Shown here one piece after another: positions 35,651-52,517 of a DNA stretch of 64,000 nt. The notes below the pieces were generated by a model. The model did not search any database. It was not told the origin of the DNA and saw only the letters and a list, made by a program, of their open reading frames with translations. Position 1 is the stretch's first letter. Each line of letters starts with the position of its first letter. Source of the stretch: Amycolatopsis umgeniensis (GTDB taxonomy: Bacteria > Actinomycetota > Actinomycetes > Mycobacteriales > Pseudonocardiaceae); assembly GCF_014205155.1 (NCBI RefSeq), contig NZ_JACHMX010000001.1, positions 2,418,001 to 2,482,000 on the forward strand, written 5' to 3'. A program made the translations under genes and the position numbers.

Positions 35651-37276
35651 TCAGGCCGGGGCTTCGCTGAGGGACTTGTGCACGAGCGCGTCGCACAACG
35701 CGAGCCAGCTCGCCTCGACGATGTTGCCGTGCACGCCGACGGTGGTCCATTCCCGCTCGCCGTCGCTCGTCTCGACGAGCACGCGCGTGACGGCGTCGGT
35801 ACCAGGGTGGCCGGGCAGGATGCGAACCTTGTAGTCGGCGAGCTCGACACTGTCCAACCAGGACAGGTGCGGGCTGAGCGCCTCGCGCAGTGCGGCGTCG
35901 AGCGCGTGCACGGGGCCGTTGCCTTCGGCGGTGGCGATCACGCGCTGCCCGGCGACGTGCACCTTCACCGTCGCTTCGGAGACGACCTCGCCGTCGGAGC
36001 GGTGGTCCAGGACGACCCGGTAAGACTCGAGTTCGAACGGCGGTTCGTCGAGGACGTCGCTCTGCGGGCCGTCAACCTCCCGCCGCAGCAAAAGTTCCAG
36101 TGAAGCGTCCGCGGCCTCGAAGGACCAGCCTTCGGATTCGAGTTGCTTCACCTTGCGCACGGCGCTCGTCAGCGCCTCGGGCTGGCCGGCAAGGTCGACC
36201 CCGAGCTCACGTCCCTTGAGCTCCAGGCTGGCCCTGCCGGCCATCTCGGTGACCAGTACCCGCATGTCATTGCCGACAGAAGCTGGATCGATGTGGTTGT
36301 ACAGCAACGGATCCACCTTGATCGCGCTCGCGTGCAGTCCCGCCTTGTGGGCGAAAGCCGACGCCCCTACGTAAGCCTGGTGGGTGTAGGGGGCGAGGTT
36401 GGCGATTTCGGCAAGGGCATGGGAGACCCGGGTGAGCTCGGTGGCACCTCCGGTCGGGAGGACCTCCATCCCGAGCTTGGTCACCAGATTTCCCGTCACG
36501 GCGAACAGATCGGCGTTACCCGCCCGTTCGCCGTAACCATTGGCGGTGCACTGGACGTGCGTCACGCCGGCCTGCACGGCGGCGACGGAATTCGCCACCG
36601 CGCAGGAAGTGTCGTCCTGACAATGGATTCCGAGCCGGAATCCGGTCCTTTCCTTGACCTCGCGGACGGTTTCCGCGAGGCCGAGCGGCAGCTGGCCGCC
36701 GTTGGTGTCGCACAGCACGGCGACGTCGGCGCCCGCGTTCACCCCCGCGTCGAGCACCTTCAAAGCGGTGTCCGGGGAGAACGCGTAGCCGTCGAAAAAG
36801 TGTTCCGCGTCAAGGAAGACGCGGCGGCCCTCGCCGACGAGGAAGGCGACGGTGTCCCGCACCATCGCGCAGGCTTCGTCGACGTCGACCCGCAGCGCGC
36901 GTTCGATGTGACGGAGGTCCGATTTGGCCACCAGCGTGATCACCGGCGCCTGGGAATCGAGCAGGGCCCGCACCTGCTTGTCCTGGTCCGCGGTGGTGCC
37001 CGCTTTTCGCGTCGCGCCGAAGGCGACGAGCGCGGCGTGGCTGAGTTTCAGTTCGCCGGAAGCGGCGCGGGCGAAGAATTCCGTGTCCTTGGGCAGCGCG
37101 CCCGGCCATCCGCCTTCGATGAACCCGACCCCGAGATCGTCGAGCAGCCTCGCCACCGCCAGTTTGTCCGTGACGGAGTAGGAGATCCCCTCGCGCTGCG
37201 CGCCGTCGCGCAACGTCGTGTCGTACAGGTGGAAAGCGTCGCCGAGCGGTGTATCGGCGGGCTCCTTGCGGGTCAC
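35651..37276 (-). CDS. cimA: Citramalate synthase
   Basis: The 541-aa protein starts at GTG 37276, 6 bp after AAGGAGA. The HMGL-like TIM barrel has LYDTTLRDGAQREG, DAEHFFDGY, CDTNGG and GYGERAGNADL; the C-terminal domain (about 400-540) is of the LeuA-dimer regulatory type that binds isoleucine. It makes citramalate from pyruvate and acetyl-CoA, the entry of the threonine-independent isoleucine route. The metal-site segment reads HCQDDTS, where many relatives have HxH. A leader peptide with three Ile codons and an attenuator precede it. Homocitrate synthase or IPM synthase are less likely given length and motifs. Confidence 0.9.
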   Translation of the reverse strand: MTRKEPADTPLGDAFHLYDTTLRDGAQREGISYSVTDKLAVARLLDDLGVGFIEGGWPGALPKDTEFFARAASGELKLSHAALVAFGATRKAGTTADQDKQVRALLDSQAPVITLVAKSDLRHIERALRVDVDEACAMVRDTVAFLVGEGRRVFLDAEHFFDGYAFSPDTALKVLDAGVNAGADVAVLCDTNGGQLPLGLAETVREVKERTGFRLGIHCQDDTSCAVANSVAAVQAGVTHVQCTANGYGERAGNADLFAVTGNLVTKLGMEVLPTGGATELTRVSHALAEIANLAPYTHQAYVGASAFAHKAGLHASAIKVDPLLYNHIDPASVGNDMRVLVTEMAGRASLELKGRELGVDLAGQPEALTSAVRKVKQLESEGWSFEAADASLELLLRREVDGPQSDVLDEPPFELESYRVVLDHRSDGEVVSEATVKVHVAGQRVIATAEGNGPVHALDAALREALSPHLSWLDSVELADYKVRILPGHPGTDAVTRVLVETSDGEREWTTVGVHGNIVEASWLALCDALVHKSLSEAPA

Positions 37277-37318
37277 GGGAATCTCCTTGTGGCGGGAGGG
37301 CGAAGCTGGTTCAGGCAA

Positions 37319-37350
37319 CAAAAAAACCTCCCGCATGGGTGCGAGAGGTT
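37319..37350 (-). terminator. Attenuator terminator in cimA leader
   Basis: On the minus strand AACCTCTCGCA and TGCGGGAGGTT form an 11-bp stem (one G-T pair) with loop CCCA, followed by a run of seven T. It stands between the leader peptide and cimA, so it can abort transcription before the gene. Confidence 0.85.
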
Positions 37351-37376
37351 GCGCGCCGGGGGCTCTTGTGGAGCTG

Positions 37377-37418
37377 TTATCCGGCGCGCTCGGCGATAAT
37401 GATGGTGCAGGAGGTCAC
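37377..37418 (-). CDS. cimA leader peptide with Ile-Ile-Ile
   Basis: Minus-strand GTG 37418 opens a 13-codon frame, VTSCTIIIAERAG, ending at TAA 37377 and holding three consecutive Ile codons (ATC ATT ATC). CATGAT lies 6 bp upstream as a -10-like box, so the transcript may start at the GTG (leaderless); a GTG at 37436 is an alternative start. The stop overlaps GCGCGCCGG, which pairs with CCGGCGCGC further on (protector stem), before the attenuator. Low charged tRNA-Ile should stall ribosomes here and allow cimA transcription. Confidence 0.7.
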   Translation of the reverse strand: MTSCTIIIAERAG

Positions 37419-37513
37419 GAACGCATCATGGCACACGCTCCGCCGGGCGTCCACAAGCCGGGCGAGGGTTCCCACTTCCTGAGAGTGACTGAAGGCTCCA
37501 GTGACGCAAATCG

Positions 37514-37655
37514 ACTCTCCTCGTGATCAGACACGGAACTCGCGTGATCAGGGACGTGACTCGCGTGATCAGAGGCGGAACACCGAGTGCCGCGTCCAAT
37601 AACGCGAGTCACGTCTGTGGTCACGCGAGTCACGTGTCTGATCACGCGAGTAACG
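37514..37655. repeat. Giant inverted repeat of 21-bp tandem units
   Basis: On the plus strand units of the type ACTCGCGTGATCAG + GGACGTG occur at 37538-37558 and 37559-37579, with a partial one before. On the minus strand three units of the same type occupy 37631-37651, 37610-37630 and 37589-37609. Copies are close to 21 bp each. The whole can fold into one long cruciform or hairpin. It separates leuB from cimA. Confidence 0.75.
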
Positions 37656-37677: not shown

Positions 37678-37720
37678 GAAGGGGCCCTTCACCGCGTGAG
37701 ATGCGGTGAAGGGCCCCTTC
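37678..37720 (-). terminator. 18-bp perfect hairpin after leuB (dispersed family)
   Basis: GAAGGGGCCCTTCACCGC (37678-37695) and GCGGTGAAGGGCCCCTTC (37703-37720) pair perfectly across GTGAGAT. Nearly the same element stands after ilvC (48849), including the flanking CATC-GACGC-like bases. Confidence 0.8.
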
Positions 37721-37735: not shown

Positions 37736-38779
37736 CTACTGCGTGACCGGGCGCACGTTCGACGACACGAGAGCCGCCAGCCGGTCACCGATCGCGTGCG
37801 TCGCACCGGGCGACGCCTGATCGCGGGTCGCGAGATCGAAGGCGACCGAAGCCTCGATCCGCCGCGCCGCTTCCTTCTGTCCCAAGTGGTCCAACAGCAG
37901 CGAAACCGACAGCACCGCGGCGGTCGGGTCGGCGAGACCCTGGCCCGCGATGTCCGGCGCGCTGCCGTGCACCGGCTCGAACATGCTCGGATTCCGCCGC
38001 GTGATGTCGAGGTTCCCGCTCGCCGCCAGCCCGATGCCGCCGGTCACCGCCGCCGAGAGGTCGGTGACGATGTCGCCGAACAGGTTGTCGGTCACGATGA
38101 CGTCGAACCGGGACGGGTCGGTCACCAGGTGGATCATCGCCGCGTCCACATGGGAGTAAGCGACGGTCACCTCCGGGTGCTCCAGCGAGACCTCTTCGAC
38201 GATCCGCGACCACAGCGAGCCCGCGTACTCCAGCACGTTCGTCTTGTGCAGGAGCGTCAGGTGCTTGCGGGGCCGCGCCTCGGCACGGTTGAACGCGTCG
38301 GTCACCACGCGCCGGACGCCGAACGCCGTGTTGACGCTGACCTCCGTCGCGATCTCGTTCTCGGTGTCCTTGCGCAGCAAGCCACCGTTGCCGGCGTAGG
38401 GGCCTTCGGTGCCCTCACGTACGACGACCATGTCGATCTCGCCGCCCTCGGCGAGCGGGCCGCGCACCCCCGGGTACAACCGGGCGGGGCGCAGGTTCAC
38501 ATGGTGGTCGAGCTCGAACCGGAGACGCAGCAGCAGGCCACGCTCCAGAATGCCGCTCGGCACCGTCGGGTCGCCCACCGCGCCCAGCAGGATCGCATCG
38601 TGCTGACGGAGTTCACCGAGTACCGACTCCGGCAACAGCTCACCGGTGGAGTGCCACCGGGCGGCGCCGAGGTCGTAGTTCGTGGTCTCCGCCGTCGGTA
38701 CGACCTCACCGAGCACCTTGAGCGCCTCGGAGACCACTTCGGGCCCGATCCCGTCTCCTGGGATCACCGCGAGCCGCAT
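37736..38779 (-). CDS. leuB: 3-isopropylmalate dehydrogenase
   Basis: The 347-aa protein (ATG 38779 after GGAGGTGTGTGG; GTG 38785 is possible) has the beta-decarboxylating dehydrogenase features: [15 protein letters not shown], the substrate motif [20 protein letters not shown], a [12 protein letters not shown] loop, [20 protein letters not shown] and an NAD-binding [11 protein letters not shown]. It carries out the third step of leucine synthesis (NAD-dependent oxidation and decarboxylation). leuA, leuC and leuD are not in the window. A perfect hairpin follows the stop. Confidence 0.97.
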
Positions 38780-38941
38780 CCACACACCTCCGTAGACCAG
38801 GCCACCGGCAGTCCGGATGGCCCATCCGCAAGAAAACGCCAGCAGCGGAAGGTTACCGGCTGTAGCCCGGTAGCCGTAGCCGCACCACCCTTATGCCGGA
38901 GGCTCCCACAGAGCGAGACAGCCGAAAGAGTGAATACAAGA

Positions 38942-48901: not shown

Positions 48902-52328
<3,427 letters not shown>

Positions 52329-52405: not shown

Positions 52406-52443
52406 CAAAAAACCCCCGCCGACCGGAGTGGTCGCACGAGGGT
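52406..52443 (-). terminator. Attenuator terminator in ilvB leader
   Basis: On the minus strand an imperfect stem around CGACC-ACTC-CGGTCG, extended by CCC/GGG pairs, is followed by GGGGGTTTTTTG. Upstream, GCGCGTCGACGC and GCGTCGACGCGC form a perfect 12-bp alternative stem overlapping the leader-peptide end. Confidence 0.75.
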
Positions 52444-52469
52444 CGCGCGTCGACGCAGCGGAGACTTCC

Positions 52470-52517
52470 CTAAGCGTCGACGCGCTGGGGAAGTACGAGG
52501 CCGGTCTGCGTTGTCAC
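52470..52517 (-). CDS. ilvB leader peptide with Leu-Val-Leu
   Basis: GTG 52517 to TAG 52470 encodes VTTQTGLVLPQRVDA (15 aa), with Leu, Val, Leu codons in a row (CTC GTA CTT) and one more Val. A -10 box (TAGCTT) ends 7 bp before the GTG, so the mRNA probably starts at the GTG and is leaderless. Its 3' half forms one arm of the 12-bp GCGTCGACGC palindrome. Classical attenuation control by charged tRNA-Leu/Val is inferred. Confidence 0.8.
   Translation of the reverse strand: MTTQTGLVLPQRVDA

Follow-up and report, generated by a model that had tools for sequence, protein, structure and literature searches.

A predicted leaderless isoleucine attenuator upstream of cimA in Amycolatopsis umgeniensis and many other actinobacteria

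In the soil bacterium Amycolatopsis umgeniensis, the citramalate synthase gene cimA, whose product begins a pathway to isoleucine, lies downstream of leuB on the minus strand of the window, by which we mean the whole stretch of 64,000 nucleotides that was analyzed. The encoded CimA is 97 to 99% identical to CimA of A. pittospori, A. coloradensis, A. regifaucium, and others. Reading of the sequence placed the parts of a putative attenuator on the minus strand, about 45 to 155 bases upstream of cimA, and these are listed here with the neighboring genes.

37736-38785, minus strand: leuB, upstream of the cimA leader and in the same direction
37448..37453, minus strand: -35-like TGGACG, with a 17-nt spacer to the -10 (from sequence and inference)
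37425..37435, minus strand: extended -10 TGTGCCATGAT, with the hexamer CATGAT at 37430-37425
37377..37418, minus strand: leader peptide frame of the leaderless type, V/M-T-S-C-T-I-I-I-A-E-R-A-G-stop, 13 codons
37395..37403, minus strand: three Ile codons, ATC ATT ATC, the predicted regulatory codons
37381..37389, minus strand: arm 1 of stem 1:2, GCGCGCCGG, which codes for the final R-A-G
37351..37359, minus strand: arm 2 of stem 1:2, CCGGCGCGC (from covariation)
37325..37350, minus strand: predicted intrinsic terminator hairpin 3:4, AACCTCTCGCA/TGCGGGAGGTT, 11 bp, loop CCCA
37320..37326, minus strand: T run of the terminator, seven T (from sequence)
37287-37283, minus strand: Shine-Dalgarno sequence of cimA, AGGAG (from sequence)
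35651..37276, minus strand: cimA, citramalate synthase, GTG start at 37276-37274 (TIGR00977, 570.6 bits, cut-off 450)

The GTG of the leader (37418-37416) begins 6 nt past the -10 hexamer. An initial annotation of this DNA had described, in front of cimA, a frame of 13 codons that includes three consecutive Ile codons, CATGAT 6 bp before its GTG, and an 11-bp terminator that has seven T. We found each of these elements in its place, and the terminator hairpin also covaries. The interval between leuB and cimA holds further repeats. An 18-bp inverted repeat at 37678-37720 adjoins leuB and is separate from the terminator of the cimA leader, and at 37522-37646, 21-nt direct repeats (three and two copies) make up a 60-nt imperfect inverted repeat that is 83% complementary.

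Folding of 37277-37440 gave a z score of -3.29, and none of 200 shuffles was equally stable. Within 1 kb, one terminator-like site was seen compared to 0.7 expected, so the terminator by itself is unremarkable. Ile makes up 3.6% of the residues in six genes of the window, and an Ile triplet within 12 codons has a probability of about 5e-4. A simple sigma-70 scan found no promoter (0 found, 0.0 expected); thus, the support for the predicted promoter is the conservation of TGTGNCANNNT and the constant spacing between it and the start codon. We base the verdict that the cimA leader exceeds chance on conservation, which is the decisive evidence.

In or near the genus and family, 111 cimA loci were compared (80 named, 30 from a genus search of 60 genomes, and the window). 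This set includes the genome of the window two times, and some other genomes are represented by both a named and an unnamed locus. Using a promoter pattern of T[GA]TGNCANNNT, 5 to 8 nt before the frame, our script recovered promoter, frame, and spacing together in 107 of the 111 loci (75 distinct). The remaining four (L037, L038, L039, and L087) have a leader by eye, with the promoter or -10 changed. Every one of the 107 frames carries at least two consecutive Ile codons and 92 carry three, while the spacing from the -10 to the start codon is 6 nt in 68, 7 nt in 38, and 8 nt in 1. At the middle position of the Ile triplet (37398-37400 in the window), 71 of 73 near leaders have ATT, which is rare, accounting for 5% of the Ile codons in the six window genes. 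In one leader, that of Kutzneria sp. CA-103260 (L072), the frame stops directly after VIIIS and before arm 1; its relative L062 differs.

Upstream of the -10 of cimA, we also noted an inverted repeat at 37470-37484 (minus strand TCTCAGGAAGTGGGA) of the type TCYC-N4-9-GRGA. Repeats of this type occur in 33 of the 75 distinct near leaders compared to 2.1 in shuffles, and 31 of the 33 begin 48 to 50 nt before TGTG. The stricter form TCYCAN5TGRGA has a single exact match in the window, the one at 37470-37484; with at most one mismatch, there are 5 matches compared to 4.3 expected. This repeat is possibly the operator of a regulator that would act on top of the attenuator.

From 34 diverse near leaders, we built an alignment (A1) and from it a covariance model (R1). 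By their labels, nearly all of the leaders in A1 come from Pseudonocardiaceae genera, along with one from Rhodococcus and one from a metagenome-assembled genome named only Actinomycetes. Of the 296 class genomes in the sample, 175 had an R1 match at an E value of 0.1 or less, and 236 had a TIGR00977 match at 1e-100 or less. A match to R1 was present in 170 of the 236 cimA-positive genomes versus 5 of the 60 cimA-negative genomes; in the one of these five that was inspected (G111, locus L172), the match is an ilvB leader. Among the best 150 matches of each search, all 99 R1 matches that could be paired lie 31 to 236 nt upstream of a cimA match on the same strand; the other 51 R1 matches listed had no listed cimA partner. 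Counting against the attenuator, 66 of the 236 cimA-positive genomes have no R1 match. Two families account for 49 of these, and elsewhere 166 of 183 genomes have a match. By eye, 8 of 30 inspected cimA loci (six of family f19, L147, and L154) showed no Ile leader, and none of the 8 had an R1 match. Among the matches listed, the 20 genomes of family f2 had neither cimA nor an R1 match. Four loci of family f19 (L143, L167, L169, and L170), which have cimA without the Ile leader, show by eye another conserved upstream stretch, of the type GGTGAACCCGTCTTCGTCGCGCGTTCCGG, with two changes in L169; a possible long hairpin also lies upstream of cimA there.

In a sample of the phylum, which overlaps the class sample, R1 matched 35 of 296 genomes at an E value of 0.01 or less. 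Twenty of these loci were fetched, 19 of them outside the class and one a second match of a class member. Twelve encode an IlvB-like protein (57 to 69% identity), two encode CimA (L235 and L249; TIGR00977, 700 and 683 bits), two encode LeuA (L236 and L247, both scoring above the cut-off of isopropylmalate synthase models), and four encode neither. A whole-genome R1 search of the A. umgeniensis genome returned nothing beyond the cimA leader and a match with an E value of 8.3, and it missed the ilvB leader, which cmsearch of the window did find; it is therefore unsafe to call the cimA leader single copy. By sequence comparison, the predicted cimA leader is common to many actinobacteria and is no local oddity.

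For peptide, geometry, and pairing, class-wide counts were made on 82 of 87 aligned rows. The rows left out were the ilvB leaders (52407-52517 and L172), the antisense rows of L103 and the L125 minus strand, and L174, which is from the genome of L173. Of the 82 leaders, 80 were parsed (L133 and L138 were not), and for L037 and L038 the start and -10 chosen by the script differ from our manual choice. The 80 peptides have Ile as 21% of all residues, and 76 contain a run of two or more. Retention of the Ile codons in relatives had been set beforehand as the test of the initial annotation, and they are retained throughout, in 107 of 107 near frames and in 80 of 80 leaders class-wide. The class-wide distance from -10 to start codon is 6 nt in 39, 7 nt in 25, 8 nt in 9, 10 nt in 5, 5 nt in 1, and 9 nt in 1. 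The earlier suggestion of a probably leaderless peptide agrees with these distances (6 to 7 nt in 106 of 107 near leaders; 6 to 8 nt in 73 of 80 class-wide), and a leaderless start, predicted from a -10 that ends 6 to 8 nt before the start codon, is well supported. Counted from the first base of the final Ile codon, the distance to arm 1 is 8 nt in 62 of 80 leaders and 5 to 9 nt in 70. The stop codon precedes arm 1 in 25 leaders and lies within or beyond it in 55. Thus, the Ile codons, unlike the stop codon, keep their position relative to the stem, which is what one would expect if it matters where the ribosome stalls.

Both stems were examined for covariation. In A1, which was not fitted to a model, changes on both sides are seen in 7 of 20 pairs, compared to 2.2 (standard deviation [SD], 1.0) in shuffles, and the share of paired cells is 97.5%, compared to 39 to 58% when the arms are slid; on one of five measures, that of further pair types, the count was 15 versus 13.2, which 40 of 500 shuffles reached. 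In A2, a broader alignment fitted to the model, 14 of 20 pairs change on both sides compared to 7.3 (SD, 1.2), and 97.2% of cells are paired compared to 38 to 63% when slid. These A2 counts use all 87 rows (86 distinct), including the ilvB, antisense, and duplicate-genome rows. By helix, 6 of the 10 modeled pairs of stem 1:2 and 8 of the 10 of the terminator show changes on both sides. Since the covariation appears in both alignments, both stems are very likely selected. A GCGC core in stem 1:2 is invariant in A1 and A2. A second partner for the conserved terminator arm CTCTCGC was considered and dropped, as distant leaders have CCTTCGC and other versions with matching changes.

The window holds a second putative attenuator of the same layout, in front of ilvB.

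52407..52517, minus strand: predicted ilvB attenuator with frame, stem, and terminator (R1, 33.6 bits)
52517-52470, minus strand: ilvB leader frame of the leaderless type, VTTQTGLVLPQRVDA-stop
50460-52328, minus strand: ilvB (NF005860, 1143.5 bits)

Where the cimA leader has its Ile triplet, the ilvB leader has Leu-Val-Leu (CTC GTA CTT). In the six window genes, GTA makes up 1.6% of Val codons and CTT 2.4% of Leu codons. All 30 ilvB loci fetched for the family (from 60 genomes) match R1, at 23 to 35 bits, and CTC GTA CTT is exact in 23 of the 28 with frames printed. The frame script missed L207 and L213; in L213 the frame is visible in the sequence, and L207 has its leader further upstream, as an R1 match only. 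The rare codons, ATT in the cimA leader and GTA and CTT in the ilvB leader, possibly serve slow decoding or keep an AU-rich stretch unstructured. Outside the class, the leuA leaders of L236 (2001-2086, minus strand) and L247 (1501-1586) match R1 with Leu as their only regulatory codons, in the peptides MSQNLLLT and VKVHHRNGLLLR. Ile-only codons at an Ile-only gene, and Leu and Val codons at a shared gene, are what a sensor of charging requires. The same genome encodes the threonine deaminase IlvA (NF006390, 541 bits, cut-off 421). We saw no such leader in the stretch upstream of ilvA and no R1 match in the ilvA locus, and cimA is thus probably not the sole source of 2-oxobutyrate.

Taking the comparisons together, we consider it likely that the cimA leader is a leaderless, ribosome-mediated transcription attenuator that senses charged tRNA-Ile. 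The comparison supports this through the parts, their conservation and covariation, the Ile specificity, the leaderless spacing, and the geometry from codon to stem; the transcription start, translation, stalling, and terminator avoidance are what we infer from it. Transcription would begin at or next to the leader GTG, and the leaderless mRNA would take up a ribosome directly at its 5' end; this ribosome would read the 13-codon frame behind RNA polymerase. With ample Ile-tRNA, the ribosome would clear the Ile codons, end at the stop codon beside arm 1, and leave; stem 1:2 and then terminator 3:4 would form, and transcription would stop before cimA. With scarce Ile-tRNA, the ribosome would wait at the Ile triplet, whose final codon lies 8 nt from arm 1, and would cover the 5' edge of arm 1, freeing the 3' end of arm 2. 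Polymerase would then continue into cimA, most likely by way of a short pairing of arm 2 with arm 3 (GCG with CGC), which is weak in the cimA leader. Such a leader may tie the citramalate route to charged tRNA-Ile and would probably restrict use of the route to times of isoleucine shortage.

We used folding to examine these steps. At the stage where arm 4 has yet to be transcribed and arm 1 is unmasked, arm 1 pairs with arm 2, leaving arm 3 unpaired. If 3 or more nt of arm 1 are masked, a pairing between the end of arm 2 and arm 3 (GCG:CGC) appears, both in the leader of the window and in the median of 82. A ribosome footprint reaches about 12 to 13 nt past the A-site codon, and masking 3 nt of arm 1 approximates what a ribosome should cover while stalled at the final Ile codon. 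For its part, PMC13236596 takes the ribosome as 26 nt centered on the codon. The pairing on masking fits classical attenuation, though it is weak: -4.8 kcal/mol in the leader of the window and a median of -3.6 kcal/mol, with a median shuffle fraction of 0.8 by expected pairs (87 rows), so that a shuffled arm 3 does equally well. The arm 2-arm 3 hairpin of the ilvB leader, a candidate antiterminator, is, in contrast, clear, with 7 bp and a median of -9.7 kcal/mol (n = 30), and about 10% of shuffles are as stable for the median leader.

Eight candidate antiterminator pairings gave median shuffle fractions of 0.42 to 0.70 compared to 0.00 for both real stems. Pairings of the loop and of the frame with arm 4 were at or below 0.05 in 8 of 70 and 9 of 82 rows, slightly above the expected 5%; the two loop pairing tests used 70 rows, as 12 with loops under 6 nt were dropped. 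In equilibrium folding of 12 leaders, the terminator stayed formed, even with arm 1 partly masked. The initial annotation had spoken of a protector stem, and the stem itself is present, covaries, and is compatible with that label; its counterpart, a competing antiterminator, did not rise above shuffles. A possible, if unlikely, reading is that termination is switched without a base-paired antiterminator, with the stalled ribosome acting through stem 1:2 against the terminator by pausing, coupling, or steric effects. This reading would include one platform across much of the class on which the codons are swapped, for cimA, for ilvB, and, in other classes, for leuA.

We think it improbable that the leader RNA is real but responds to a protein or to general translation at stem 1:2 and the terminator, with the Ile codons secondary. 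The shuffled controls, above which no antiterminator pairing rose, and the invariant GCGC core would suit such a signal. So would the Streptomyces coelicolor ilvB leader, in which substituting the possible regulatory codons left regulation unchanged (cited by Seliverstov et al., PMC1262725), and the protein binding proposed for the leuA element in the same paper. However, Ile is kept in all 80 class-wide leaders, mostly at one distance from arm 1, and the codons become Leu-Val-Leu at ilvB and Leu at the two leuA genes, matching the products of each pathway. Further, replacing the four regulatory codons of the Mycobacterium tuberculosis ilvB1 leader abolished induction (PMC13236596).

Control of translation or mRNA stability, in which the leader or its hairpin would alter access to the ribosome-binding site of cimA, appears very improbable. 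In the minimum-energy fold of the window's own leader, CUCCU of the frame does pair with AGGAG, the Shine-Dalgarno sequence of cimA; T-boxes that act on initiation have been predicted in actinobacterial ileS genes (PMC1262725), and PMC13236596 cites the leaderless mycobacterial leaders for Cys as acting on translation. Yet only 4 of the 75 distinct near frames contain CTCCT, all of one peptide type, so the CUCCU:AGGAG pairing is not conserved, and a covarying intrinsic terminator with its T run stands between frame and gene. That the hairpin is merely the terminator of leuB, which lies upstream in the same direction, and the short frame an accident is hardly credible and was rejected on the conservation of the cimA leader: short frames and terminator-like hairpins are indeed common, but promoter, frame, Ile codons, stems, and spacing are conserved together across the class, and leuB has the separate 18-bp inverted repeat beside it.

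Set beside known systems, the predicted attenuator is closest to those of ilvB and ilvBNC, namely IlvL of S. lividans, the ilvB-II motif, and M. tuberculosis ilvB1, with which it shares a frame of branched-chain codons by a stem, a terminator, and a T run. The order of parts in ilvB-type attenuators, with the codons followed after about 8 nt by arm 1 and then by arm 2 and the terminator, is also that of the cimA leader. The two differ in the gene, in the Ile-only codons, and in the sequence and length of the terminator. The published antiterminator of the Corynebacterium ilvB-II motif forms between the P1 loop and the 3' arm of the terminator (PMC10272879), whereas the corresponding pairing in the cimA leader is not above shuffles. 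S. lividans has leaderless leader peptides for amino acids (trpL, leuL, ilvL, and thrL; PMC8079986, Table 4), of which IlvL is like the predicted cimA leader in this respect, and these Streptomyces leaders and the mycobacterial Cys leaders share with it the leaderless initiation of a short regulatory frame. The LEU element before actinobacterial leuA, a pseudoknot involving the Shine-Dalgarno sequence for which classical attenuation was judged unlikely (PMC1262725), likewise has a leader peptide with runs of end-product codons, and the cimA leader differs from it in having a terminator.

With the trp, his, and leu attenuators of enterobacteria, the cimA leader shares regulatory codons, a protector-like 1:2 stem, and a terminator. 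It differs from them in lacking a Shine-Dalgarno sequence and a demonstrable 2:3 antiterminator, and its Ile codons stand just before arm 1 and not inside it. In the trp attenuator, the regulatory codons lie inside arm 1. T-boxes and riboswitches also control amino acid genes from the 5' leader, and as candidates for the cimA leader they were rejected, as no Rfam model of this kind matched it. Rfam 15 holds no family for the leader; in the window only two tRNAs reach threshold, and the matches at the locus are weak and unrelated. SCO5529 is a Streptomyces cimA tag. Leader-peptide attenuators or candidates have been reported for ilvB, trp, leuS, and leuA of actinobacteria by Seliverstov et al. 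in 2005 (PMC1262725), whose accessible text describes other amino acid pathways as having no conserved structures and does not name a cimA leader. Neither cimA nor citramalate is mentioned in the main text of PMC8079986 or in the accessible text of PMC2965389. We found no published description of the cimA leader in the accessible literature, PMC12452182 included, a search outside which most subscription journals lie. It is apparently an undescribed element that belongs with the known ilvB-type attenuators of actinobacteria.

The cimA leader would thus add a widespread, apparently undescribed, Ile-only RNA element to the branched-chain network of actinobacteria. As the role of regulatory codons in these leaders is disputed, the cimA leader (Ile) and the ilvB leader (Leu-Val-Leu) offer a natural pair within one genome. 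In annotation, the cimA leader could help to separate citramalate synthases from isopropylmalate synthases.
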